64,000 nucleotides of DNA, taken from contig JAJDVX010000033.1 of NCBI GenBank assembly GCA_022825895.1, positions 1-64,000 of the forward strand. Reading direction: 5' to 3'. The notes below the pieces were generated by a model. It had not been told where the DNA came from. It searched no databases and was given only the letters and a program-made list of their open reading frames with translations. Below are positions 547-12,475 of this stretch, in pieces (positions within the stretch are counted from its first letter, which is position 1; the number at the start of each line of letters is the position of its first letter). Source of the stretch: Chloroflexota bacterium. GTDB taxonomy: Bacteria; Chloroflexota; UBA11872. A program made the position numbers and the translations under genes.

Positions 547-1374
547 CTAGCCCTGCGGCTTGCGGGCGATCACCTCGCCGTAGGCCACGGCGCCAAAGGC
601 GCCGGGGTGGTGCATCCACCGCTTCAGCGCCTGCTCCAGGTTGTCCAGGTGCTGCTGCGTCGCCACGCCGTACGCCGTCGCCGAGTCGCGAATATCGGCC
701 GACAGGAACCAGTTCTCGATGACGTGGGAGAAGTAGCCGATGTCTTCGGCTGTCGTGTACGACGTGAACGATGCCGTCGGCCGCACGTCGGTGAACCCGG
801 CCTCAAGCACATGCCGCTTCAGGTCCCGCCCGATATTGGGGTGCCCGTCATCCGCCGTAATCAGTTCCGCCAGCGTGACCCAGGCGTCGCCCGTGACCTC
901 GAAGTCTGGCGCGAGAAACGAGCCGTCGAGGACCCATTCCCGCATGGAAATCAGGCCGCCGGGCTTCAGAACCCGCATCGCCTCGGCAAGCACGGCTTGG
1001 GTATCGCGAACATGCACAAGGATGGCGTGGCCGTGCACGACGTCGAAGTAATCGTCATCGAATGAAAGCCCCGTCACGTCGGCAACCTGGAACGTCGCGT
1101 TGTCGTGTCCGCCCGCCTCGGCGATCGACCTCGCCAGGTCCACTTGCGTCGGCTCCATGTCGACGCCGTACAACGCCCCGGGGGCTATCGCTTCGGCCAG
1201 GCCAACCGACAGGGAGCCCGGTCCGCAGCCCAGGTCCAGCACCCGCAGGCCGGGCGTGAGATGGGGGAGCAGATGCGCGGCGTGCGTGGACGCCGTGTGC
1301 CGCCTGAGATGCTGGAGCATGCTCTCACTGAAGCCGATCGTGTAATACGGCGTTCCGGACGTCTCGTCGGTCAT
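547..1374 (-). CDS. Class I SAM-dependent methyltransferase
   Basis: The 275-residue protein begins MTDETSGTPYY and carries the class I Rossmann signature VLDLGCGPGSLSVGLAE at about residues 45-61 (motif I), GVDMEPTQVDLAR (motif II acidic loop) and VVHGHAILVHV followed by EAMRVLKPGG (motifs IV-V). This pattern is typical of the Methyltransf_11/UbiE-like group acting on small molecules; the substrate cannot be read from sequence. The frame is open 20 codons further upstream, but the ATG at 1374 gives the normal family N-terminus. It stands alone between an IS remnant and non-coding sequence and is transcribed toward the IS. Confidence 0.85.
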   Translation of the reverse strand: MTDETSGTPYYTIGFSESMLQHLRRHTASTHAAHLLPHLTPGLRVLDLGCGPGSLSVGLAEAIAPGALYGVDMEPTQVDLARSIAEAGGHDNATFQVADVTGLSFDDDYFDVVHGHAILVHVRDTQAVLAEAMRVLKPGGLISMREWVLDGSFLAPDFEVTGDAWVTLAELITADDGHPNIGRDLKRHVLEAGFTDVRPTASFTSYTTAEDIGYFSHVIENWFLSADIRDSATAYGVATQQHLDNLEQALKRWMHHPGAFGAVAYGEVIARKPQG

Positions 1375-1798
1375 CAGTGCCCTCAGACCCTGCGGGGTCG
1401 TTTCCCAACCCTCCGGGCAGCCCGCGATTGTCAAGCGGCTGCCGCCCAGGGGTCAAATCCACCGGTGCCCACCCGCTCATCCGGCCCCTCTGCCTCACCG
1501 TCAGCCGGCGCACCCCGGCCGCCTCCGCCGTCGAGTTCGAGCCCCGTGCCGCCACCGACCGCCAGTCCCTCCCCCGCGACCAGATCGTCAAGACGGTGCT
1601 CGAGGCCCGCGAGAGTGCCCTGGCCGCCTTGACTCCGGACGCACCGGTAACCATGCCGCCGGTCGGCGCGGCAGAAAACACCGGCTAGCGCGCCAGGTTC
1701 CGCAAGAACTCAACCGCGGTGCCTAGTCCAGGAGGGCTGAGCGCCGACTAGAATTTCGGTGACCCCGCCGCCTGACGGGGCCGCTTGCGGTGCGTCAT
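1375..1798. other. Intergenic stretch without a convincing gene
   Basis: A forward open frame covers 1377-1688 and includes a protein-like stretch ending near LPRDQIVKTVLEARESALAAL, but it has no recognisable family, no good ribosome site and a proline-rich start. I treat it as a possible remnant. An AT-richer patch CTAGAAT near 1749 could be a -10 element for the membrane-protein cluster that follows. Confidence 0.3.
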
Positions 1799-2869
1799 AT
1801 GCCGTGGCTGAGCGGTCCGCCACTCGACTCAAGCGAGAACGCGCTCGCTGCGCTGCACGCCCTCGAGCGTGACGGCTACCCGCGCACCCGGGCCAGGACC
1901 GAGCTTGCGCTCTACCTGCACCGAGTCCGCGCCGCTGGCACGTCCAGGGGTGAAACTGCCGTGGCCGGCGTCCTCACGGTCGGGGCCATGGCAGCCGCTG
2001 TCACATGCCTGCTGATCTTGTCGCTGGAAGTGCTTGTGCGTCGCCTGGGTGTCGGCGGGGCCCTCGCGTCCTTTTTTGACGACAGGACCGCATTTATTGT
2101 GCCCGCCATCATGCCGGCGGCGCTCCTGGTCCTGCTGGCGCTCGGACTGGCCGGGGCGCTCGCGGCGCTGATCATCCGGTATCGCTGGCGGCGGTCGGGC
2201 GTCTTGCAGAACTTCATTCGGCGGGACTCGCCGCGCGTCGACCTGTTGCTTTGGGTGGGCGGGTCGGGGCTGCTCGTGCTAGTCACCGGTCTCACACTGC
2301 TGACCGGTTGGTGGCTGGTCGTTCTTGGGATGTTCGAAGAAGCGGCGCAAGTACCAACGTTTGAGGCGATGATTCTGCGCCCGTTGATAAGCGACCACGC
2401 GCAGGCGTTCGTCCTTTGGGGAATCCCCCTGGGGGCCTTGGGTTTCGCCTCCTGGTTCCCCGCCATTCATGCGCGGATCTTGTCGTCGTTGAGCATCGTC
2501 GATGCCGCCTTCTACGCGCGGCCCATCATTGAGCGCGACCTGGCTGCTGGCGCGGCCCGATTGCCCGAGTCCTACCGTCACGGCCTGCCGTTGCGCAGGC
2601 GACTCTGGCGCTACGGCCTGCTTACCGGTGGGATCACGGCTGCCGCCTGGGGTGCGACCCAGGTTCTTTCCTGGGTCAGCGTATTCCGGGGACCGATGGA
2701 CTACTACTGGGACGGCTTCTGGAGCCGCAATTCCGACGAACTCACCTCCGCCGGGTTAGCAAGCAGCTACGAGCCCGGAGCCTCGGTGGGTGTGGTCGGA
2801 TTACTCGCTGGCTTGGCGCTCGGCGTTGGCTTTTCCTGGTTCTACGCCCGCTACCTGGAGGGCTGGTAG
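1799..2869 (+). CDS. Multipass membrane protein, paralogue 1 of a tandem modular family
   Basis: A 356-residue protein of no family I recognise. ATG 1799 is preferred over GTG 1790 because MPWL then aligns with MSWI/MSWF of the paralogues at 2957 and 5076. An N-terminal cytosolic helix (about residues 1-45) ends in LYLHRVRAAG, matching LHRVRAAL in the next gene. Hydrophobic segments follow at roughly 55-80, 100-125, 150-175 and 200-220, with the shared basic loop YRWRRSGVLQNF and a shared region SIVDAAFYARPIIERDLA. The last helix ends WFYARYLEGW. The protein lacks the PQRDSR sequence of its siblings. Role unknown; expression with the following genes is likely. Confidence 0.7.
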   Translation: MPWLSGPPLDSSENALAALHALERDGYPRTRARTELALYLHRVRAAGTSRGETAVAGVLTVGAMAAAVTCLLILSLEVLVRRLGVGGALASFFDDRTAFIVPAIMPAALLVLLALGLAGALAALIIRYRWRRSGVLQNFIRRDSPRVDLLLWVGGSGLLVLVTGLTLLTGWWLVVLGMFEEAAQVPTFEAMILRPLISDHAQAFVLWGIPLGALGFASWFPAIHARILSSLSIVDAAFYARPIIERDLAAGAARLPESYRHGLPLRRRLWRYGLLTGGITAAAWGATQVLSWVSVFRGPMDYYWDGFWSRNSDELTSAGLASSYEPGASVGVVGLLAGLALGVGFSWFYARYLEGW

Positions 2870-2956
2870 CCCTCCACAGTCGCTCCTCCGCTGAGCGGAC
2901 CGTCGCCTAAAATGTCCCGATCCGCCGCCTGTCGCCGCGGCCTGCAGAGCCTGAGC

Positions 2957-4078
2957 ATGTCGTGGATTAGAGATCCGCAACGCGATTCGCGCGAGCACAT
3001 CCGCGCGGCTCAGCAGGCCCTGGTGTACGCCGGCTATCCGCACGCCGATGCAGTCACTGCGGTCGCCGCCCATCTGCATCGTGTCCGCGCCGCCCTGGCC
3101 GCCCCGCGCCATGCCGCCATTGCCGGATTCCTGACCGGCGCGTCCATGGTTATTGGTGCGCTGCTGGTGCTGACCCTCGCGCTGGGCGGTCTTGGCCTGG
3201 TGATGGGCGCGACCGGAGACTCCGGGACTCCTGACGAATTCGTCCCCGCCGCACCCGCCGCACCCTCGGCCCCGCCGGCCGACCCGGACCCCGGATCGCC
3301 GCTTGGGGTCCTGCCGGCGGTTGCGGTGACCGCGCCCGTGCTGGGCTTGGCCGGGGCGGGCATGTCGCGCGTCACGCGCAATCGCTGGCGTCGCGCCGGC
3401 GTCCTGCAGACCTTCGGCAACCTGCGCCCGCGCCGTCGGTATCTCCTTGAGACCGCCGTCGTCTGGCTGGCTGTGGCCGGGCTCATCGTGCTCATCGTCT
3501 GGGCCATGGCCGGCCCGCGGTTGGGCGCCACCGTGGCCCAGATGCTGGCCTTCTTCGGAATCCCCGTCGGTGCGGCCGCCTTCGCGGCCTGGTTCCCCAA
3601 GCTCTACGCCTGGATCCTCCCGCGGATGAGTCCCGTGGACGCCGCCGCGGCCGCCCGGCCAGTCATCGAACGCGAGGCCGCCCAACAGATCAAGACCGAG
3701 CGTGACTTCTACGGCGCCAGCGGCTACGACCGCACCGCCTACGACCGCAGCCGCTGGGCCGACGAGATCCTGGGGGCCGACTCCCAGGGCTACTTCGCCG
3801 AGGCGCAGCGCCGCGGCGAACGGGCCCGCGACATCGCCCGACGGTCGGGGTCCTATTCACACGGCATGTCGGGCGGGCGCCGCCTCGCCCGCTACGCCCT
3901 GATCACGGGCGGGCTCACCGTGGCCGGCTGGCTCTTTATTCAACGCCTCGTCTGGATCATGCGGCCGTTCGACAATTCGGATTTAGGGGCGGAGGTAGGC
4001 GTCATCGCCCTGCTCCTGGGCCTGGTGTTCGGCCTCGGCCTCACCTGGCTCTACGCCCGCTACTTCGAGGGCCTATGA
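2957..4078 (+). CDS. Multipass membrane protein, paralogue 2 (full-length archetype)
   Basis: At 373 residues this is the most complete family member and defines the modules. The N-module MSWIRDPQRDSREHIRAA to LHRVRAAL spans about residues 1-48. A hydrophobic segment, an Ala/Pro-rich extracytoplasmic loop, and the basic loop NRWRRAGVLQTF follow. Next come two more helices and the conserved AFFGIPVGAAAF, AWFPKLYAWILPRMSPVDAA and ARPVIEREAA stretch. A hydrophilic insert rich in Tyr/Asp/Arg precedes the C-module, whose final helix ends TWLYARYFEGL. ATG 2957 is chosen because it starts exactly at the N-module; an upstream in-frame ATG at 2912 would add 15 atypical residues. It lies 87 bp after paralogue 1. 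Function unknown. Confidence 0.75.
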   Translation: MSWIRDPQRDSREHIRAAQQALVYAGYPHADAVTAVAAHLHRVRAALAAPRHAAIAGFLTGASMVIGALLVLTLALGGLGLVMGATGDSGTPDEFVPAAPAAPSAPPADPDPGSPLGVLPAVAVTAPVLGLAGAGMSRVTRNRWRRAGVLQTFGNLRPRRRYLLETAVVWLAVAGLIVLIVWAMAGPRLGATVAQMLAFFGIPVGAAAFAAWFPKLYAWILPRMSPVDAAAAARPVIEREAAQQIKTERDFYGASGYDRTAYDRSRWADEILGADSQGYFAEAQRRGERARDIARRSGSYSHGMSGGRRLARYALITGGLTVAGWLFIQRLVWIMRPFDNSDLGAEVGVIALLLGLVFGLGLTWLYARYFEGL

Positions 4079-4109
4079 TCGCCCGGTCGGCACCGCCACC
4101 CCGTTAACC

Positions 4110-4562
4110 ATGAGTTCCAGGCGCCGAGCGGACCGCGATCGCGTGCATCGCCCGTTTGCCGATCCGCTGGACACCTTCACCGAAAATCCACGCCGGCCGT
4201 CTCGAACCCAGCGTCACCGTGCGGAGGCGGAACGCCGCCGGCAGGCGGAGCGTGACGTCGACCGCCTCGCCGCCGGCCACGATGCGCCGCGCGGCCAACG
4301 GCTGCTGATCTACGGGCTGCTAATCGCCCTGATCACCATCATCGGCTGGCGCATGACGCACTGGTTGGTCTACTTCACTTCCGTTAGACCCCTCAGCGGC
4401 GGCGGCGCCATCATGGGCCGCAGCGGCCGCGACATCATCGCCTCCGGCTTCGAGACCCCGCCGCCGCCGGCCGCCTGGATCGATCCGGTCGGCCTGGCCG
4501 TTGGCCTGGCCCTGGGCCTCCTCATCACCTGGATCTACGCCCGCTACTTCCAGAACCTGTGA
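4110..4562 (+). CDS. Membrane protein carrying only the C-module of the tandem family
   Basis: This 150-residue protein lacks the N-module and central helices of its neighbours. An Arg/Glu-rich soluble segment (about residues 1-68) leads into two predicted helices, around 70-92 and 120-142, and the protein ends ITWIYARYFQNL, matching TWLYARYFEGL of the gene 31 bp upstream. It therefore looks like a free-standing copy of the C-terminal half, made either by internal deletion or as a deliberate partner subunit. The ORF is intact and codon use resembles its neighbours, so I treat it as a gene. Family and function are unrecognised. Confidence 0.65.
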   Translation: MSSRRRADRDRVHRPFADPLDTFTENPRRPSRTQRHRAEAERRRQAERDVDRLAAGHDAPRGQRLLIYGLLIALITIIGWRMTHWLVYFTSVRPLSGGGAIMGRSGRDIIASGFETPPPPAAWIDPVGLAVGLALGLLITWIYARYFQNL

Positions 4563-4654
4563 GCACGCGGTCACACCGTACGCCGCGTTGCTACGGCCGC
4601 GGGCTATCCGGACGCTGCCACCGTTCCCGTCCCGCGCACCGAAACAGCTAACCC

Positions 4655-5059
4655 GTGCAACTGGACTTCGCCTTCCTCTGCGACTACGCCGACAGCACCT
4701 CCAAGGTCGTGGCCATCGGCATCGGCTTCGACCAGATCCACGCCCCCAGCCTCCCCACCCGCCATCCCCGCCTCTGCGTCGTCGCCCGCTTCCGCGCCCA
4801 CAAGACCGAGATCGGCGCCAAAACGGCCCGCGTCGTCATCATGGACGCCGACGGCTCCCAGATCGCCGCCGTGCAGGGCGACGTCGAGTTCACCGACCCG
4901 ATCGACCGCCTCGAAACCACCGCCACCCTGGTCGTCAACTTCGACAACCTCACCTTCGACCGCTACGGCCCCCACTCCGCCCACATCCTCCTCGACGGCA
5001 ACGAAATGCACCGCATGACCTTCGAGGTTTCCGAGCCTCCGGCCGGGGGCGGCCCGTAG
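4655..5059 (+). CDS. DUF6941-like soluble protein
   Basis: The 134-residue product starts at GTG 4655 with MQLDFAFLCDYADSTSKVVAIGIGFDQI, the usual opening of small beta-sandwich proteins I associate with DUF6941. The pattern continues with LCVVARFR, a middle with alternating hydrophobics and ADGSQIAA, and a C-terminus with HILLDGNEMHRMTFEV. No signal peptide or membrane helix is visible. It sits inside the tandem membrane-protein cluster, 93 bp after one member and 17 bp before the next, all on the plus strand, so cotranscription is likely; whether it partners with them is inference. The molecular role of the family is unknown to me. Confidence 0.6.
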   Translation: MQLDFAFLCDYADSTSKVVAIGIGFDQIHAPSLPTRHPRLCVVARFRAHKTEIGAKTARVVIMDADGSQIAAVQGDVEFTDPIDRLETTATLVVNFDNLTFDRYGPHSAHILLDGNEMHRMTFEVSEPPAGGGP

Positions 5060-5075
5060 AAGTGGAGTAGCGATC

Positions 5076-5921
5076 ATGTCCTGGTTCACCAGCCCGCAGC
5101 GCGATTCGCGCGAGGACATTCGGGCCGCCCGCCAGGCGCTGGCGTTCGCCGGCTACCCGCTCTCCCAGGCCACGACCGAGTACGACAAGTACCTGTACCG
5201 CGTGCGGGCCGCCTTGGCCTCGCATCGCCACACGCTCAGGGCGGGCTTTCTGGCGGGCGTCGCCCTTGCCGTTGCCTTGATGCTCACGGCGGGCGTGTTG
5301 TCGTTCCTGCTGGTTGTGATCTTCGGTTCCGGGGTCCCCTCGCCAGGTCCAGCCGGACCGACGGTCGTGCCCGGGACCGAGGATGCCGGGACTTCCGACA
5401 GGTCGCCGCTCGACCTGGTGCTGCCGGCGGCAACATCCATGGTCATTCTCGGCGTGGCCGGCGCGGCCACCGCGCTCGTCACCCGCGGCCGCTGGCGGGG
5501 CGCCGGGGTGCTGGTGACATTCAGCGACGTCGCCCCGCGCCAAACCTATCTGCTGCAGACCGTGGCGGTCTGGGTGGGGATCGGCGCCCTCATGGTCCTG
5601 GCCGTCCGCTGGCGAGGCGACGAAGAGATGGTCACCGGCGCAATCGTGATGCTGGCCTTTGCCGGGATTCCACTGCTGGCCTTCTTCTTCTACGCCGTGT
5701 TTCCCAGCCTCTACCGCTGGCTGCTCCCCCGCGTCAGCCCGCTCGACGCCGCCGCCTTTGCACGTCCGATCATCGAGCTTGAGGTGGCCCTGCAGATTGA
5801 CTCAGAACGTGAGACGCACGGGCGCGGCACATTTCACCGCGCCTTCTACGACCGCAGCGCCTGGGCCGACGAAGTCCTGGCCCGACTGGACGTTTCCAGG
5901 AGCGGCCGGCGGCGGGGCTAG
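5076..5921 (+). CDS. Membrane protein paralogue lacking the C-module
   Basis: The 281-residue protein opens MSWFTSPQRDSREDIRAARQ, nearly identical to the N-module of the gene at 2957, and continues through LYRVRAAL, the loop RGRWRGAGVLVTF, helices, FAGIPLLAFFF and PLDAAAFARPIIELEVALQI. It ends shortly after FYDRSAWADEVLARLD, so the C-terminal helix ending YARY-x-EGL is missing. The downstream sequence to 6062 does not restore it in any frame I can read. It is therefore either a truncated paralogue or one half of a split architecture whose other half is supplied by a free C-module protein such as that at 4110. Confidence 0.7.
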   Translation: MSWFTSPQRDSREDIRAARQALAFAGYPLSQATTEYDKYLYRVRAALASHRHTLRAGFLAGVALAVALMLTAGVLSFLLVVIFGSGVPSPGPAGPTVVPGTEDAGTSDRSPLDLVLPAATSMVILGVAGAATALVTRGRWRGAGVLVTFSDVAPRQTYLLQTVAVWVGIGALMVLAVRWRGDEEMVTGAIVMLAFAGIPLLAFFFYAVFPSLYRWLLPRVSPLDAAAFARPIIELEVALQIDSERETHGRGTFHRAFYDRSAWADEVLARLDVSRSGRRRG

Positions 5922-6062
5922 GCCAAACACCGCGCCCCCGGGAGGTGGGGGGCCGATTGGATCGCTGCTCTATGGTTTCGGCGTCGTAAAGTAGCGAGGG
6001 CAAACTGGTTCGCCGCTCTTGAAAGCTAGGGCGCGGCGACCCGACCGGCGGGGACTGGCTGC

Positions 6063-7145
6063 ATGCCTGGGTTCTCCAACCCCCAACGCGACTCGCGCGA
6101 CGCCATCCACGCCGCGCCCAACCGGCGCTGGTCGCCCACGGCTGCGCGAACAGCCGTGGTCGTCATGGGCCTTGCCCTGCTTGCGGCCTCCTGGGTCCCT
6201 GCGTGCGCCCCCCAGACATCCACGCCCACCCCGACACCCGCCGCCGCGACCCCGACACCCACCGCCGCTGCCACCGCGACCCCGACACCCACCGCCAGCC
6301 CCACGCCAACTCCGCAAGAACGGCCCGACGACCGAGCCGTCCTGGTGGCCCTGTATGAGGCAACCGGCGGCCCGACATGGGTGAACCGCGCGGGCTGGCT
6401 CGGTGACGCGTCAATCGACACTTGGCACGGCGTAATAGTCGACGCACGCAACCGCGTGATTGAACTCGACCTGAGCCACAACGGGCTCCAAGGTCCGATT
6501 CCCGCAGAGCTGAGCCGTCTCACCCGCCTGGAGTGGCTCGATCTCAGCGACAATCGCCTCGAGGGGGCCATCCCGGTCGAACTGACCCACATCGCGAGCC
6601 TGGAATGGATCGATCTCAGCGTCAACCGCCTGCAAGGGCCGATTCCCCCGGAGTTCGCTCGCCTGACCAGGCTGAGTTCCCTGTACCTTGACCAAAACCA
6701 GTTGAGCGGCGGGATCCCACCGGAACTCGGCGAGCTCGACAGGCTGGAGACGTTGGTCTTGAGCGAAAACCTCCTGACGGGAGACCTCCCCATCGAGCTC
6801 ACCCGCCTTCGCAGGCTCGAGTTTCTGTCGCTGTGGAGCAACCGCTTGACCGGTCCAATCCCGCCCGAGTTCGGTCAACTTTCGAACCTGGAATACCTGG
6901 ACCTCGGCGGAAACTCGCTCCACGGTCCCATTCCCTCCACGTTGGGCCGCCTGACCAACCTCGAACTGCTGGACGTTAGCTGGAACCGGCTGTCGGGCGA
7001 GATACCAGCCGAATTGGCCGATCTCGCGTACCTGTCGGGTCTGTATGTCCTGGGGAATCGACTGAGTGGTTGCATTCCCCAGGGGCTCCAACACACCGAA
7101 GACAACGACTTTGCCGAGGTTGGTCTGCCGGTCTGCCAGTCCTGA
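6063..7145 (+). CDS. Leucine-rich-repeat lipoprotein fused to a remnant of the membrane-family N-module
   Basis: The 360-residue protein begins MPGFSNPQRDSRDAIHAA, the first 18 residues of the neighbouring membrane-family N-module. It then switches to a basic stretch and a hydrophobic segment ending in the lipobox-like VPAC (about residues 30-54). A TPTP/ATPT linker follows to about residue 85. Next is an LRR cap (LYEATGGPTWVNRAGW) and about nine plant-type 24-residue repeats of the form LxxLxxLxLxxNxLxGxIPxE from about 125 to 350. Such proteins are usually surface-exposed binding modules. ATG 6063 gives the PQRDSR start; a functional export signal may begin later, near the basic residues. 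The fusion probably arose by recombination within the cluster. Confidence 0.75.
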   Translation: MPGFSNPQRDSRDAIHAAPNRRWSPTAARTAVVVMGLALLAASWVPACAPQTSTPTPTPAAATPTPTAAATATPTPTASPTPTPQERPDDRAVLVALYEATGGPTWVNRAGWLGDASIDTWHGVIVDARNRVIELDLSHNGLQGPIPAELSRLTRLEWLDLSDNRLEGAIPVELTHIASLEWIDLSVNRLQGPIPPEFARLTRLSSLYLDQNQLSGGIPPELGELDRLETLVLSENLLTGDLPIELTRLRRLEFLSLWSNRLTGPIPPEFGQLSNLEYLDLGGNSLHGPIPSTLGRLTNLELLDVSWNRLSGEIPAELADLAYLSGLYVLGNRLSGCIPQGLQHTEDNDFAEVGLPVCQS

Positions 7146-7199
7146 CCGCGGAGCGGGCCCCGCGCTCGCAGGTCACCGTCAGCCGCGCGTACTGACCCC

Positions 7200-7313
7200 G
7201 ACTTGGCGCCGCTGTCGGCCGGGCTTGGAGCTGATCTGGCAGGCTTGGCGGTGGGCTTAGTTCTTGGCGTCGGCCTAACCTGGGTGTACACCCACGACCC
7301 GGAGGGCCTGTGA
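7200..7313 (+). pseudogene. Remnant of the membrane-family C-module
   Basis: In the frame ending at TGA 7311-7313 the sequence reads LAPLSAGLGADLAGLAVG through GVGLTWVYTHDPEGL, which aligns residue for residue with the tail of the next gene (LEPLAIGLGADLTGLALR to GVGLTWFYARNLEGL). No start codon or upstream domain belongs to it. It is best read as a decayed duplicate of the C-module; its stop codon overlaps the GTG start at 7310. Confidence 0.6.
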
Positions 7314-7555
7314 CTCGAACGCTCTCGCGTCACGCGCTACGAGTCGGCGGCAGCACACTCGCGGGCTGGTTCATTACCCGCTGGGTGCTCAGCGGTTCCG
7401 GCGGGGGCCCCAGTGGCCCGGGGCATCCTACGTCTCCCCTAAACTTGGAACCGCTAGCGATTGGTCTCGGGGCTGACTTGACAGGCTTGGCGTTGCGCCT
7501 CGCCCTCGGCGTAGGTCTGACGTGGTTCTACGCCCGCAACCTGGAAGGCCTGTGA
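7310..7555 (+). CDS. Small membrane protein consisting of the family C-module
   Basis: This 81-residue product begins at GTG 7310, which overlaps the stop of the preceding remnant as GTGA. It contains a short region with hydrophobic character (about residues 10-28), a Gly/Pro/Ser-rich loop and a final helix ending GVGLTWFYARNLEGL, the hallmark tail of the cluster. It resembles the gene at 4110 but is shorter. It may be a functional small subunit or another decaying fragment; the intact tail and tandem context leave both open. Its own stop overlaps a GTG that opens the first of three copies of the downstream binding-protein 5' end. Confidence 0.45.
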   Translation: MTRTLSRHALRVGGSTLAGWFITRWVLSGSGGGPSGPGHPTSPLNLEPLAIGLGADLTGLALRLALGVGLTWFYARNLEGL

Positions 7556-7616
7556 ACACCCCTCCGCGCCTCACCCCCCGCCAGCCCCTCGCCCTCAAAG
7601 GTGCGGCCGCCCTAGG

Positions 7617-7800
7617 GAGACCTTTGCATAACCCGAGGGGCGGGTGTGCGGAGTCAATCCCTTCGAGGAGCCGCCGTTCTTCCCCTCTCCAGGGGGAGAG
7701 GCAGAACCTGTCCTGAGCTTGCCGAAGGATTCGGGCGTCTTCGGCCGAAATCGGTGAGGGGTCTTCCGGGCACCCAAGCCCGGGGTACGCAGAGGTCTCC
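7617..7800. mobile_element. MITE-like non-autonomous element, copy A
   Basis: The 184-bp segment begins GAGACCTTTGCATAACCC and ends with GGGGTACGCAGAGGTCTCC, an imperfect inverted match. Internal blocks (AATCCCTTCGAGGAG, a GGGGAGAGGCAG hairpin half, TTCGGGCGTCTTCGGCCG) are shared with the copy at 13645-13859. It encodes no transposase. It also carries CCTGTCCTGAGCTTGCCGAAGG at 7707-7728, a motif related to 13349-13370. Confidence 0.55.
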
Positions 7801-8055
7801 TACGGGACACGCCGGCGGGTGAGGGGGCTTTCGGGCACCCACCCCGGAGTACGCAAGGATCTCCTGGAGGGCCTGTGAACACCCCGCCTCGCCTCACCCC
7901 CCGCCAGCCCCTCGCCCTCAAAGGTGCGGCCGCTCGTGCTCCCGCTCCTGGCAAACTGTTGCAGAATGCTCCCGCGCCCTCGAACGCGGGGCGGCTCTTG
8001 CTCCCTCTCCCCGTGGGAGAGGGTTGGGGAGAGGGTCTTCCGGGCTACCAACCAT

Positions 8056-8138
8056 GGGTTACGCAAAGGTCTCTCCAGGGGCGGACGGTTGGGCTGAGGG
8101 CTCTTCCCGGCAACCAACTCGGGCTACGCAAAGATCTC
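8056..8138 (+). repeat. Two further MITE-like right ends
   Basis: GGGTTACGCAAAGGTCTC (8056-8073) and GGGCTACGCAAAGATCTC (8121-8138) repeat the right terminus of the 7617 element without a matching left terminus. A weaker copy lies at about 7845-7862. They directly precede the real start of the binding-protein gene and may hold its promoter. Confidence 0.45.
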
Positions 8139-8149
8139 TTGGAGGGCCG

Positions 8150-9604
8150 GTGAACACCCCTCCGCGCCTCAACCGCCGCCAGGCCCTCGCCGCCGGCGCG
8201 GCCTCCCTCGGCGCGCTCGCCCTGGCCGCCTGCGGCGAGTCCCCGGCCGAAAGTGCCGCCGGATCCCTGCCGGAAGGTCTCCAGGCCGAGCTGCAACGCA
8301 ACCTGGAACGCGCCCGCGCCCAGGCCCGCAACGTCACCGCCGCCGCGCCCCGGTCCGCCGACAAACTGCCCACCCCCGGCGCCAAGCACGCGGTCACGGT
8401 CGCCATGTACCCCACCAATCGTATTGGCGGCAGCCTGTTCGGCCAGTTCGTCAATGGTCTGGCGGCGGCCCGCGAGCGCGGCGAGGACCGTTACACCTAC
8501 GAGGAGGCGTCGCTGGACTACGGGCGCAACGCCTCCACCTTCAGCATCAGTACCTCACTGGTCGCCCTGCAGAACCAAAAGCCGGATCTGGTCATCTTCT
8601 TTAGGGCCGACCAGGCCGACCTGCTGGCCAACGACCGCCTCGCGCCGCTGGACGACTTTGTCGTCTCGGACCCCGACTTCAACGCCGCCGACTTCTGGCC
8701 GGGGCTGCTGGAGACCGGGAAACACGAGGGCGTGCAGTTCGGGATGCCGGTGGCCGTCTCGCCCCATGTGCTCCTGTTCAGTCGCCGGTGGGCGATCGAG
8801 CAACAGGTCGAACCGCCGGCCCCCGATCCGCGGACCTTCGATGCCGAAGTCTTCCTCGACACCGTGCGCGCCCTCCACGTGGAGCCGCCGCCTTCGGGCG
8901 GCTTGGGCGGCATGGGCTACCTCTCGCGCTTCACCCCGGAACCGAACGGCGACGGCGACTACTCGGCGTCCCCGTCGCCGTACGAGTTGCTGCAGTCCGC
9001 CGTCGGCGACCTTCGCGGACCTGATAACGACTTCGCGCCCCTCACCTCGCCGCCCGCCGTTCAGGTCGCCGAATTCCTGCGCGCCTGGGTGCACGACCAC
9101 CGCCTGGCCATCACCGATGGCCGCTCCACCCGCTCGTTTCAACGCACCGGCCAATTCGGCTTCGCCGGCACCATCCTGGCCTTCATTCCGCCAAGCCGGC
9201 TCATCGGCAGCAACATTGACATCTATCCGCTGCCCAACATGGGCACTGGCCGCAGCCCCGTCTTCGTCCACGCCATGCTGGGCGTACTGGCCGATTCGCC
9301 GAACCCCGAAATCGCCTACGACGCCCTGCGTCACCTGGCGGCTGGCCTCCGCTCCAGCTCCATCCTCCCGGCAACCAAAATCTCAGCCCCGGGCGTCGCC
9401 GCCCGCGCCACCGAACTGCCCCACGAAGGCGCCAACCTCGTCGAGCTACTCATGCGGAACGCCGTCTACTCCACCCTCAGCCGCCGCCAGGCCGGCCTCA
9501 TCACCAACGCCATCGTCGGCAACATCATCTTCGGCGACCACCACCCCCAAGACGCCCTCCAAGCCCTCACCGACCAACTCCGCGCCGACGACGCCGACGC
9601 GTAG
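8150..9604 (+). CDS. Tat-exported lipoprotein solute-binding protein of an ABC transporter
   Basis: The 484-residue protein starts at GTG 8150. It opens with a twin-arginine signal (NRRQALAAGAASLGALALAAC) whose Cys at about residue 31 completes a lipobox, so it should be a Tat-exported lipoprotein. The body resembles family 1 extracellular solute-binding proteins, e.g. KPDLVIFFRADQADLLANDRLAPLDDFV and a late FGDHHPQDALQALTDQL helix typical of sugar-binding members. The longest open frame begins at 8024, but only from 8150 is there a sensible signal peptide. No permease or ATPase genes are adjacent, so it is an orphan here; substrate unknown, sugar likely by family. Confidence 0.75.
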   Translation: MNTPPRLNRRQALAAGAASLGALALAACGESPAESAAGSLPEGLQAELQRNLERARAQARNVTAAAPRSADKLPTPGAKHAVTVAMYPTNRIGGSLFGQFVNGLAAARERGEDRYTYEEASLDYGRNASTFSISTSLVALQNQKPDLVIFFRADQADLLANDRLAPLDDFVVSDPDFNAADFWPGLLETGKHEGVQFGMPVAVSPHVLLFSRRWAIEQQVEPPAPDPRTFDAEVFLDTVRALHVEPPPSGGLGGMGYLSRFTPEPNGDGDYSASPSPYELLQSAVGDLRGPDNDFAPLTSPPAVQVAEFLRAWVHDHRLAITDGRSTRSFQRTGQFGFAGTILAFIPPSRLIGSNIDIYPLPNMGTGRSPVFVHAMLGVLADSPNPEIAYDALRHLAAGLRSSSILPATKISAPGVAARATELPHEGANLVELLMRNAVYSTLSRRQAGLITNAIVGNIIFGDHHPQDALQALTDQLRADDADA

Positions 9605-10517: not shown

Positions 10518-11033
10518 CTAGACATCAATCAACAGCACACTAATAGGCGCAATAGGAAAGTGTCGCGTCATCTGCTCAATGTCGTGTACGGACGGCGCGC
10601 CTTGTGACACCCCGTGCGACAACCGTTGGGACCGTCCGTTAGCCGGAGTGATTTCAACGGCAACATCTGCCTTGCCCGAATGATAGAAGTGCTGGAACTT
10701 TGCCAAGTCGTAAAGCATGCAAGAGTGAGCGCCAAGCTGAACCTCAACATAGACATTCTGCTTGAGATAAGCGATCTGCTTACGCTCACGAGCGATGGCT
10801 AATGGATCGCTTGCTTGCTCGAAGCCACGGTTGCGGAACTCCGTTAGGAACTGGTCTTTGACATCGTCGAGCGAGTAAGGGAACCGCCCGCGCACGGTCT
10901 CGTCGTCGGCTTTCCTGGATGGGGCTGGCGTGACTGTGGCTATGGCGGCAAGAATGTCAGCCATAATTTCAGGGTGACGAACCTGAAGTATTTCAGCACC
11001 GCCAAGGTGCGAGTACTCGTGAACGGTCCTCAT
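10518..11033 (-). CDS. BglII/BstYI-family restriction endonuclease-like protein, possibly inactive subunit
   Basis: The 171-residue protein starts at ATG 11033 (MRTVHEYSHLGGAEIL) with AGGAG about 11 nt upstream; two earlier in-frame starts give no family N-terminus. The core NVYVEVQLGAHSCMLYDLAKFQHFY matches the E-x-Q and AKF region of the BglII endonuclease family (PF09195 as I recall it). The sister nuclease at 11885 has KIDCFRNRIALEIEW, giving D-x8-E-x-E. The aligned position here is Ala (IAYLKQNVYVEVQ), so the first metal-binding Asp seems absent. It is last in the transcribed order nuclease, methyltransferase, this gene, 182 bp after the methyltransferase. It may be a DNA-binding partner or decayed paralogue. 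Confidence 0.65.
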   Translation of the reverse strand: MRTVHEYSHLGGAEILQVRHPEIMADILAAIATVTPAPSRKADDETVRGRFPYSLDDVKDQFLTEFRNRGFEQASDPLAIARERKQIAYLKQNVYVEVQLGAHSCMLYDLAKFQHFYHSGKADVAVEITPANGRSQRLSHGVSQGAPSVHDIEQMTRHFPIAPISVLLIDV

Positions 11034-11215
11034 TGCTCGGGCGCGCTCCTGGCTTTGGACCAAAGGTCGCAGCAGTGGGTGACCTGAAGCGCCGCCCCCG
11101 ACTCAGGACGCTCCATAGTATCAGAGCATGCCGCGGGTGGCGCGGACCACCAGCCGACGGACATCAACCGCTTCTGGTGTGTCCGGCGTCTAGGATTCCC
11201 AGTAACCGCGAGTCA

Positions 11216-11881
11216 TTAGCGTGCGCTTGTTGGCAAGGATGCCGGCCGTGGTGCTTCCCGCGACGGGATGACTTGTGAGTGGTTGGCGTACGTACTCCAA
11301 GTTGGTGTGTAGTCTTCACTCTGGTCGCCCCAGGTGAACCAGCCGGAGCGGGTTCCTCGGGCAAACAGCTCGATTCTCGGGGCGGGACTGCAGGCCTCGA
11401 TAATGGCGTACTGCTCGTCAGGTTTGCGGCTGTGCTCCCTTTTTCTTGCGCTGATGATGTTCTCTTGGCTTCGGCCTGGCGGCAGGGTCCGCGCATTCTT
11501 GCCACGGACACCGAAGAGGAGAATCTCCGTTACATTCCTGAAATAGAATCCTACCCCGCGCCGATCCGGTCCGCCGTCCTTTCGCACCTTGTACCAGACG
11601 AGATTTGTCTTGTACGTGAACCCCCAGGCCTGCATGACCTTAAGGCCCTCGGCCAATAGCGCGTTGGGCACCCATAAATACAGGTGTGCGGGATCAGCCG
11701 CTATGGACGCGACCGGAAGGTCACAGATCTCCTCCAGTGACAACGTTTGATAGCGGGAAAGCCGCCGATGCTCCGGGGCAACCTTGCCGGTACGATTCTG
11801 AAACTGCCACGGCGGGTCGGCGAGAATGGTTGAAAACCTCTGTTCCTCAAATCCGTCGAGCAGGCCCTGAGAAATGCTCAC
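11216..11881 (-). CDS. MT-A70-family DNA N6-adenine methyltransferase of the restriction-modification operon
   Basis: The 221-residue protein has the MT-A70 hallmark: TILADPPWQFQN with the catalytic DPPW at about residues 21-24, then LYLWVPNALLAEGLKVMQAWGFTYKTNLVW and the closing VTEILLFGVRGK. GTG 11881 is used as start; it lies 3 bp after the stop of the nuclease gene upstream, implying one transcript. MT-A70 enzymes in this context usually methylate adenine within the cognate restriction site and protect host DNA. BglII/BstYI-type nucleases recognise GATC-containing sites, so adenine methylation of such a site is plausible but not shown by the sequence. Confidence 0.8.
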   Translation of the reverse strand: MSISQGLLDGFEEQRFSTILADPPWQFQNRTGKVAPEHRRLSRYQTLSLEEICDLPVASIAADPAHLYLWVPNALLAEGLKVMQAWGFTYKTNLVWYKVRKDGGPDRRGVGFYFRNVTEILLFGVRGKNARTLPPGRSQENIISARKREHSRKPDEQYAIIEACSPAPRIELFARGTRSGWFTWGDQSEDYTPTWSTYANHSQVIPSREAPRPASLPTSAR

Positions 11882-11884
11882 GGC

Positions 11885-12475
11885 CTATTTCCCAGGCACA
11901 TATAGCTTTGACGTGATGCCAAGAGCCAGAACTGGGCAACCACCGCCGCCGCCACCGGCCAAACGCGGCAACAGCTTGGACATGTGGGTCGTTGACGATC
12001 CGTACGACTTGCCTCGGCCCAGCCGATTGAAGATCTCCTGGAGGTTGTCGGACCGTGTGATGATAATTCCAACACTCACCGCATGCAAGTCGAACAACAA
12101 CCTGAAGTTGTTGAGGTCGCGGTCATAGAACGTATCTTTGTTGTTCCACTCGATCTCCAGCGCGATGCGGTTACGGAAACAGTCAATCTTGTGCGTGGGC
12201 TGTTCGCTCGCCTGACCGTCCACAACAACTGCTGTTTCGAACTCTTTCTCAAACCATCCTCGATTGTAAAGATAAGAGTCGATAAACTCCGATATCTGTG
12301 ACTTTCTGCCTCCCGGCTTGGATACATAGCTTTCCAGGAGCCTGAATTCGGTCAGCATGTCGATCAGATCACGCCATTCCCCGGGAAAGTCCCCTTTGAG
12401 TATGGCGCAACTGTGCTTGGTTTCGTGGACTTCGTAGTTCGACCGGATGAAGTCCGGCAGAAGGTTGACGCTCAC
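11885..12475 (-). CDS. BglII/BstYI-family type II restriction endonuclease
   Basis: The 196-residue protein has the segment KIDCFRNRIALEIEWNNKDTF followed by DRDLNNFRLLFDLHAVSVGIIITR, the characteristic core of BglII-family endonucleases. The catalytic set is D-x8-E-x-E with Asn after it (about residues 95-108). The start is GTG 12475; no ATG precedes it in frame. It is the first gene of a minus-strand operon, with the methyltransferase beginning 3 bp downstream. A Gly-rich stretch (LAGGGGGGCPVL) precedes a short C-terminal tail. Recognition sequence unknown; a GATC-containing palindrome is a family-based guess. Confidence 0.75.
   Translation of the reverse strand: MSVNLLPDFIRSNYEVHETKHSCAILKGDFPGEWRDLIDMLTEFRLLESYVSKPGGRKSQISEFIDSYLYNRGWFEKEFETAVVVDGQASEQPTHKIDCFRNRIALEIEWNNKDTFYDRDLNNFRLLFDLHAVSVGIIITRSDNLQEIFNRLGRGKSYGSSTTHMSKLLPRLAGGGGGGCPVLALGITSKLYVPGK

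Follow-up and report, generated by a model that had tools for sequence, protein, structure and literature searches.

HAAS domains (helix-turn-helix-associated alpha-helical signalling domain; PF22564, DUF1700) are reported to form dyads with PadR, and PadR-coupled sensors have been proposed as alternatives to two-component systems (PMC11237479). Here we describe a locus of an uncultured Chloroflexota genus that we compare with these dyads and with ATP-binding cassette (ABC) importers that depend on a solute-binding protein (SBP). The window analysed covers the initial 64 kb of contig C5 in draft genome G000 (3.54 Mb, 44 contigs), and its positions 1799-7555 carry five homologous membrane-protein genes: two are full-length (A and B), one holds the N-terminal module alone (N-only) and two the C-terminal module alone (C-only and a small C-only). 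The family is built from two separable modules, an N-terminal and a C-terminal part, it is new to the databases searched, and it is essentially restricted to one genus. We tentatively put forward, as a possible function, that its members serve SBP-like lipoproteins as a membrane relay or scaffold, with assembly driven by a C-terminal glycine-zipper hairpin, and that they work in the manner of the HAAS partners of PadR.

The cluster and its neighbours have the following order:

547-1434, minus strand: S-adenosylmethionine methyltransferase, the neighbour on the opposite strand (Pfam Methyltransf_31, E = 4.5e-26)
1799-2869, plus strand: full-length member A, 356 amino acids from ATG 1799 (359 from the alternative GTG 1790)
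2957-4078, plus strand: full-length member B, 373 amino acids, six predicted transmembrane (TM) segments, both ends inside by charge
4110-4562, plus strand: C-only member, 150 amino acids, a basic N-terminus and then the two-TM C-module with GxxxGxxxG
4655-5059, plus strand: DUF6941 protein between C-only and N-only (Pfam PF22091, E = 5.9e-29), in 7 of 10 clusters
5076-5921, plus strand: N-only member, 281 amino acids, with the N-module, TM1-4 and the SPxDAA block and without the C-module
6063-7145, plus strand: leucine-rich repeat (LRR) lipoprotein-like gene (Pfam LRR_1, E = 7.8e-34), whose first ~18 codons match the leader of the family N-module
7197-7313, plus strand: C-module remnant (profile match E = 4.2e-7, profile positions 332-369)
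7310-7555, plus strand: small C-only member, 81 amino acids (profile match E = 1.5e-12)
8168-9604, plus strand: SBP-like protein, the next gene downstream, start chosen within the open reading frame (ORF) 8024-9604, with a twin-arginine and lipobox-like N-terminus by eye

With B as query against its own genome, the matches included N-only (46% identical, E = 2.5e-67) and A (41% identical, E = 9.1e-21), so the homology of the cluster genes is beyond chance. The motifs that an earlier sequence-only reading had described across the five loci are present, with exceptions at A, which has PPLDSSENALAA where PQRDSRE is expected and ends EGW, and at C-only, which ends YARYFQNL. Two further pieces lie beyond the five loci: the C-module remnant, which ends in GLTWVYTHDPEGL and a stop at 7313 and overlaps the start of the 7310 ORF, and the LRR gene, whose N-terminus, MPGFSNPQRDSRDAIHAA, is the family N-terminal leader. 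The LRR gene has thus captured its 5' end, ~18 codons long, from the start of a family gene.

The suggestion that the family is undescribed also held up. No family protein of the window, of the clusters in relatives or of the dispersed F and g485 types introduced below passed a curated Pfam cut-off, and no family protein of the window passed one in NCBIfam; the best PDB sequence matches had E = 1.5 and 0.42, and Foldseek returned no match at E ≤ 0.001 for structure models of moderate confidence. Since the family has no name to look up in the literature, 'undescribed' rests on these database searches. Weak matches were judged accidental: YccF for B (E = 0.01, 16 bits against a cut-off of 213), SPOR for N-only (E = 0.027) and DUF3185 in a single cluster member (E = 0.0087). 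The Yip1 domain (PF04893) matched one of 25 cluster members weakly (E = 0.0091), but the other 24 gave nothing at E ≤ 1, and this likeness, probably due to common TM composition, was likewise set aside as accidental.

A profile of 25 members, run against 400 genomes of the phylum with at most five candidates scored per genome, matched 14 of them, namely all 13 genomes of the window's genus and one of a sister genus (G017), where only a remnant is present; the other 386 gave no match. Searching 61 genomes with B, with all candidates scored, returned the same 14. Six short patterns taken from B, which reach close relatives only, located four relative loci among GTDB contigs. Besides the cluster there are three dispersed types: the divergent F-type (13/13 genomes of the genus), an N-only type termed H277 (12/13) and g485 (6/13). 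An F-type profile had no match among the remaining 28 class genomes examined, and the first 90 residues of g485 matched four of 251 phylum genomes, all of the window's genus. A mobile origin was rejected: tblastn of B found no match in 72,556 plasmids or 50,697 phages, none of 45 pattern stretches in viral contigs was confirmed as a relative, and PHROGs gave one uninformative match (1 of 23 members, E = 0.0018).

The cluster is present in ten genomes (G000, G001, G004-G006 and G008-G012), and the gene order in relatives places it at a fixed site between proS and SBP-pepF. By the same comparison C-only, which directly follows B in 10/10 clusters, is the most constant half-length part. B has close orthologs (80-96% identity) in nine other genomes of the genus; a relative of A in G004 (L042:12981-14225) is 47% identical and occupies a different cluster position. 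N-only occurs in seven of the ten clusters (G005, G008 and G009 are without it), lies downstream of C-only in all seven, and always ends as ADEVLARLDxSRxx[RK]RR[RGH]. The DUF6941 gene, for which a literature search found no paper naming the domain, stands between C-only and N-only in 5 of these 7. An ortholog of the SBP-like gene lies downstream of the cluster in 10/10, preceded in G001 and G004 by counterparts of the small C-only gene. An ortholog of the methyltransferase adjoins the cluster in six of nine relative loci, two of the other three (L041 and L047) stopping close upstream. In the complete genome G002 the proS-to-SBP site holds only a 76-residue C-only protein, and the caller gave no family gene at this site in G003 (76% complete); G007, with its short contigs, was left out of this comparison. 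Neighbour genes at the SBP sites and at the loci of the dispersed types come from a homemade caller based on G+C content at third codon positions and may be wrong, and the names PhyH and proS are assigned in most loci by similarity to one tested copy or by phmmer. The lone N-only type H277, together with the lone C-only gene at the cluster site of G002, indicates that the modules can exist apart.

By a simple counting method with no significance test, median ratios of non-synonymous to synonymous change (dN/dS) were 0.22 for B (45 pairs), 0.37 for C-only (45), 0.44 for N-only (21), 0.35 for DUF6941 (21) and, for two further cluster types, 0.28 for D (10) and 0.21 for E (3). For the small C-only gene the median over three pairs was 0.45 (0.45 and 0.39 with the window copy, 0.72 between the other two), so constraint on it is weakly evidenced. 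The intact subfamilies have the look of long-established genes, inherited vertically and held under purifying selection. The full-length, N-only and C-only types are old paralogs that have been conserved separately from one another; this holds for B, C-only, N-only, D and E, the data for A and the small C-only gene being few.

Hydropathy analysis predicts six TM segments in B and the F-type, four in N-only and H277 and two in C-only; at the threshold used, A and the small C-only protein have one fewer than expected, and g485 has seven because its first segment is split. Arg/Lys residues of B number 7, 9 and 18 in the segments predicted to lie inside, against 0-1 in the outer loops. AlphaFold models of B and N-only place a two-helix hairpin ahead of TM1. 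The predicted layout of the N-terminal part is this helical hairpin, short and cytosolic, followed by four TM helices and a basic SPxDAAxxARPxIE block, which is also cytosolic. The C-terminal part is predicted to be a hairpin of two TM helices; the last of these often has a glycine zipper, and the YARYxEGL-like stub at its end lies in the cytosol.

Zipper motifs were counted in 44 C-modules, including five F-type and three g485 modules of those known and without the 7197-7313 remnant; these rows are related and the counts are not independent. GxxxG is found in 39 of the 44, against 18.4 expected from shuffled tails, and the full GxxxGxxxG in 26, against 1.9. All 11 C-only proteins have the full zipper. 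The sequence-only reading had suggested that the tail may be an interaction or sorting signal; since the last TM helix is rich in glycine and the tail is predicted to be its cytosolic end, helix packing is a likelier role than sorting.

A possible regulatory link comes from g485. A padR gene stands beside it in 6/6 genomes that have g485, and in the three loci read it abuts or overlaps g485, which starts at the padR end; the PadR assignment (PF03551, 38 bits against a cut-off of 27) was tested at one locus. The gene after g485, again in 6/6, encodes an SBP-like lipoprotein 38% identical to the one that follows the cluster. In G000, G001, G004 and G006 the same PhyH-SBP site is without both g485 and padR, and so it is in G005, where the gene caller did not give PhyH. 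Just before padR lies a 19-bp element, TATAnTnnTTTACGGAATA (short form TTTACGGAATA), once in each of the six g485 genomes and in none of the other seven genomes of the genus. Part of it resembles a -10 box, and the element may be a promoter, an operator or both. The palindrome ATGT-N8-ACAT is a PadR site; none was found in L049 or in the window. No PadR gene was seen at the F-type or H277 loci read.

The proposal of a membrane relay for SBP-like lipoproteins builds on the presence of the family in 13/13 genomes of the genus, the six TM segments, the SBP neighbours (10/10 and 6/6), the PadR neighbour (6/6) and its element, the dN/dS values of 0.21-0.44, the zipper counts and the separable modules. 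The multi-TM proteins would act as membrane partners for the SBP-like lipoproteins whose genes lie directly downstream. On the outside, the lipoprotein would sense a solute or the state of the envelope, and the multi-TM protein would relay the signal inward, its cytosolic hairpin and SPxDAA block contacting a regulator. For g485, the PadR protein encoded next to it would take this part and control its own operon. Stand-alone C-modules may pack on full-length members through the common glycine zipper, which would tune assembly rather than complete N-only.

Several features are shared with HAAS-PadR dyads. A cytosolic helical hairpin precedes multiple TM helices in both; g485, alone among the paralogs, has a stand-alone PadR gene directly upstream, the two being present or absent together; and GxPxxxA is found at the hairpin in 17/25 N-modules, compared with 16/20 HAAS rows. 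The differences are that only one paralog type has PadR, that an SBP-like lipoprotein is the neighbour, and that HAAS has three helices with GxP at a kink in the third, whereas the family models have two before TM1. In the family GxPxxxA lies between the two hairpin helices, and profile alignments do not superpose it on that of HAAS. There was no HAAS/DUF1700 match at E ≤ 1 in 25 + 6 members, nor in two g485 proteins; PF22564 matched 46 of 151 phylum genomes, none of the window's genus, five genomes of which are among the genomes listed as matchless. With hmmsearch, the HAAS model on 25 N-modules gave at best 8.4 bits, aligning hairpin helix 2 with HAAS helix 2, and the N-module model on 20 HAAS rows gave at best 11.3 bits in another register, with E-values that apply to these tiny sets only.

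On this analogy one could go further and picture a three-part signalling arrangement that parallels HAAS-PadR: an outer SBP-like lipoprotein, a relay of six TM helices that bears a two-helix hairpin in the cytosol and, for one paralog, a PadR repressor of its own operon only, the tandem cluster being an expanded sensor array with free-standing zipper hairpins as assembly subunits. We consider this extended picture doubtful.

A number of observations weigh against a relay of this kind. The ten B rows have GxxxG, and the full zipper in none; GxxxG is found in 0/3 g485 rows and 1/3 small C-only rows; and the YAR-like end is present in 34/44 C-module rows. Both structure models are of moderate confidence (predicted local distance difference test scores of 69 for B and 64 for N-only). 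The SBP-like protein of the window resembles SBP_bac_1 and SBP_bac_8 (PF01547, PF13416) weakly across most of the profile, but at 19.2 bits (E = 0.0013) and 16.7 bits it falls under the cut-offs of 26 and 27. No PadR gene was found at the window cluster and G000 as a whole has no match above cut-off, so a relay in the window is without a known output. Nine of nine loci around more distant SBP paralogs (L148-L155, L157) have no family gene, nor do the five SBP2 loci without g485 (L142, L143, L146, L147, L156); G003 has SBP1 with no family gene beside it; and the F-type and H277 lie in unrelated neighbourhoods. Comparison of the hairpin with HAAS by hhalign gave a probability of 14% over 16 columns; the hairpin gives no match with the HAAS model and its profile likeness is insignificant, membership in HAAS is not claimed, and the resemblance is kept as an analogy. 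Finally, adjacency of genes is not interaction. We regard the family as a lineage-restricted orphan with a suggestive regulatory link, and any function given to it is a guess.

The neighbouring SBP-like genes could also be read as part of an unconventional transporter, in which the six-TM proteins are the missing membrane subunits and move solute without a classical ABC permease. The SBP-like gene adjoins 10/10 clusters and 6/6 g485 loci, and an importer permease could be recognised neither in the window cluster nor, by eye and from heuristic calls, beside the SBP genes in the gene lists of relatives. However, the cluster has no recognised ATPase as an SBP-dependent ABC importer would, there is no transporter match above cut-off in Pfam or PDB (AA_permease matches one of six F-type members below cut-off, at E = 0.0054), and the SPxDAA block, by eye, does not resemble the ABC EAA loop. 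We consider a transporter unlikely.

The half-length genes invite a second alternative, raised in the sequence-only reading, that N-only would supply TM1-4 and C-only TM5-6 of a single assembled protein resembling the full-length members. Together they sum to six TM helices, all seven cluster N-only genes (7/7) have C-only upstream of them, and both evolve with dN/dS well under 1. In part-wise trees, however, N-only groups with the D-type (Shimodaira-Hasegawa-like approximate likelihood ratio test, SH-aLRT, 90) and C-only with the A/B side (80-84); this support is moderate and the C-module short (98 columns), and the disagreement led us to reject the splitting of one gene as their origin. C-only is also found without N-only in 3/10 clusters, H277 is an N-only protein apart from the cluster in 12/13 genomes, and G002 has a lone C-only gene at the cluster site with no cluster N-only. 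An approximately unbiased test of whether that G002 gene belongs with the C-only clade gave p-AU 0.177, and the gene may be either ancestral or a leftover. The constant gene order leaves room for functional pairing, but the half-protein idea is weakened and complementary halves seem to us quite unlikely.

The mixture of intact and split genes had also been taken to suggest repeated internal recombination, and for intact genes this found no support. Nucleotide identity was compared for six pairs of types in four segments covering residues 1-272 of B, the C-module lying outside the test; identity between paralogs of the same genome and of different genomes differed by no more than 0.02 in 23 of 24 comparisons, the exception being one single same-genome D-E pair (0.520 versus 0.473). 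Differences at fourfold sites were noisier (-0.11 to +0.04). Because same-genome paralogs are no closer than cross-genome ones, the intact genes have not recently traded N-terminal modules, and gene conversion or module swapping among them gave no signal within residues 1-272. Deletion and capture did take place around the D-type gene, of which remnants are seen in G000 and G004. The remnant at 7197-7313 probably derives from such a gene, judging by G001, where the matching position holds an intact D (L040:11293-12426), and an LRR gene with the family leader occurs in two species at different cluster positions (G000 6063-7145; G004 L042:10252-11724).

Local birth-and-death of a duplicated gene, with half-length copies as tolerated by-products that have no role of their own, fits the decay of D in two genomes, a stop-interrupted full-length copy in G006, the variation of gene content between species and the dN/dS of 0.39-0.72 over three pairs of the small C-only gene, but is improbable given that C-only has its own conserved N-terminus and is kept in 10/10 clusters with dN/dS of 0.37, and that N-only is kept with the same end in 7/10 with dN/dS of 0.44. 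If the relay of signals from SBP-like lipoproteins is correct, the family would add a new type of membrane partner to PadR-coupled sensors and would serve as a natural experiment on the division of multi-TM proteins into half-length paralogs that are stable. The family marks a lineage-specific trait of this genus.

Around the dispersed paralogs, the F-type gene follows AAA and VWA genes in three loci read (two by eye) and does not do so in G002. H277 of the window's own genome (G000:C5:145121-145888, L004) lies next to genes that read like amino-acid biosynthesis, one of which we take to be aspartate-semialdehyde dehydrogenase.

Other observations concern the surroundings of the cluster. The segment around the start of the SBP-like gene (GTGAACACCCC...) is present in three copies within 7494-8191, and a 41-bp unit in four at 7759-8138; the 5' end of the gene seems to have been duplicated with small repeats in between. 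On the other side, between the methyltransferase and A, positions 1501-1657 are 83-88% identical to the 3' end of proS in G001 and G004, as if the region had been rearranged. Further downstream, two ORFs matching the restriction endonuclease BglII (10518-11063, E = 3.8e-11, and 11885-12475, E = 2.4e-45, minus strand) flank an MT-A70 methyltransferase at 11216-11881, and 10518-12475 is likely a restriction-modification locus. Inspected by eye, an ORF at the contig start (59-343) resembles the last part of an integrase-type transposase, with no Pfam match at E ≤ 0.1. In two genera, ~3.5 kb of DNA is 97% identical (L056:2943-6440 in G006 and L057:1-3744 in G017), with a broken family fragment beside 28-30-bp repeats at ~60-bp spacing that resemble CRISPR arrays; this suggests recent transfer of a CRISPR-like locus. 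One relative from the GTDB scan bears the isolate series name jk18x7bins, which another report uses for metagenome-assembled genomes of the sponge Ircinia cf. reteplana (PMC9531527), and the window's own genome may by extension be sponge-associated.

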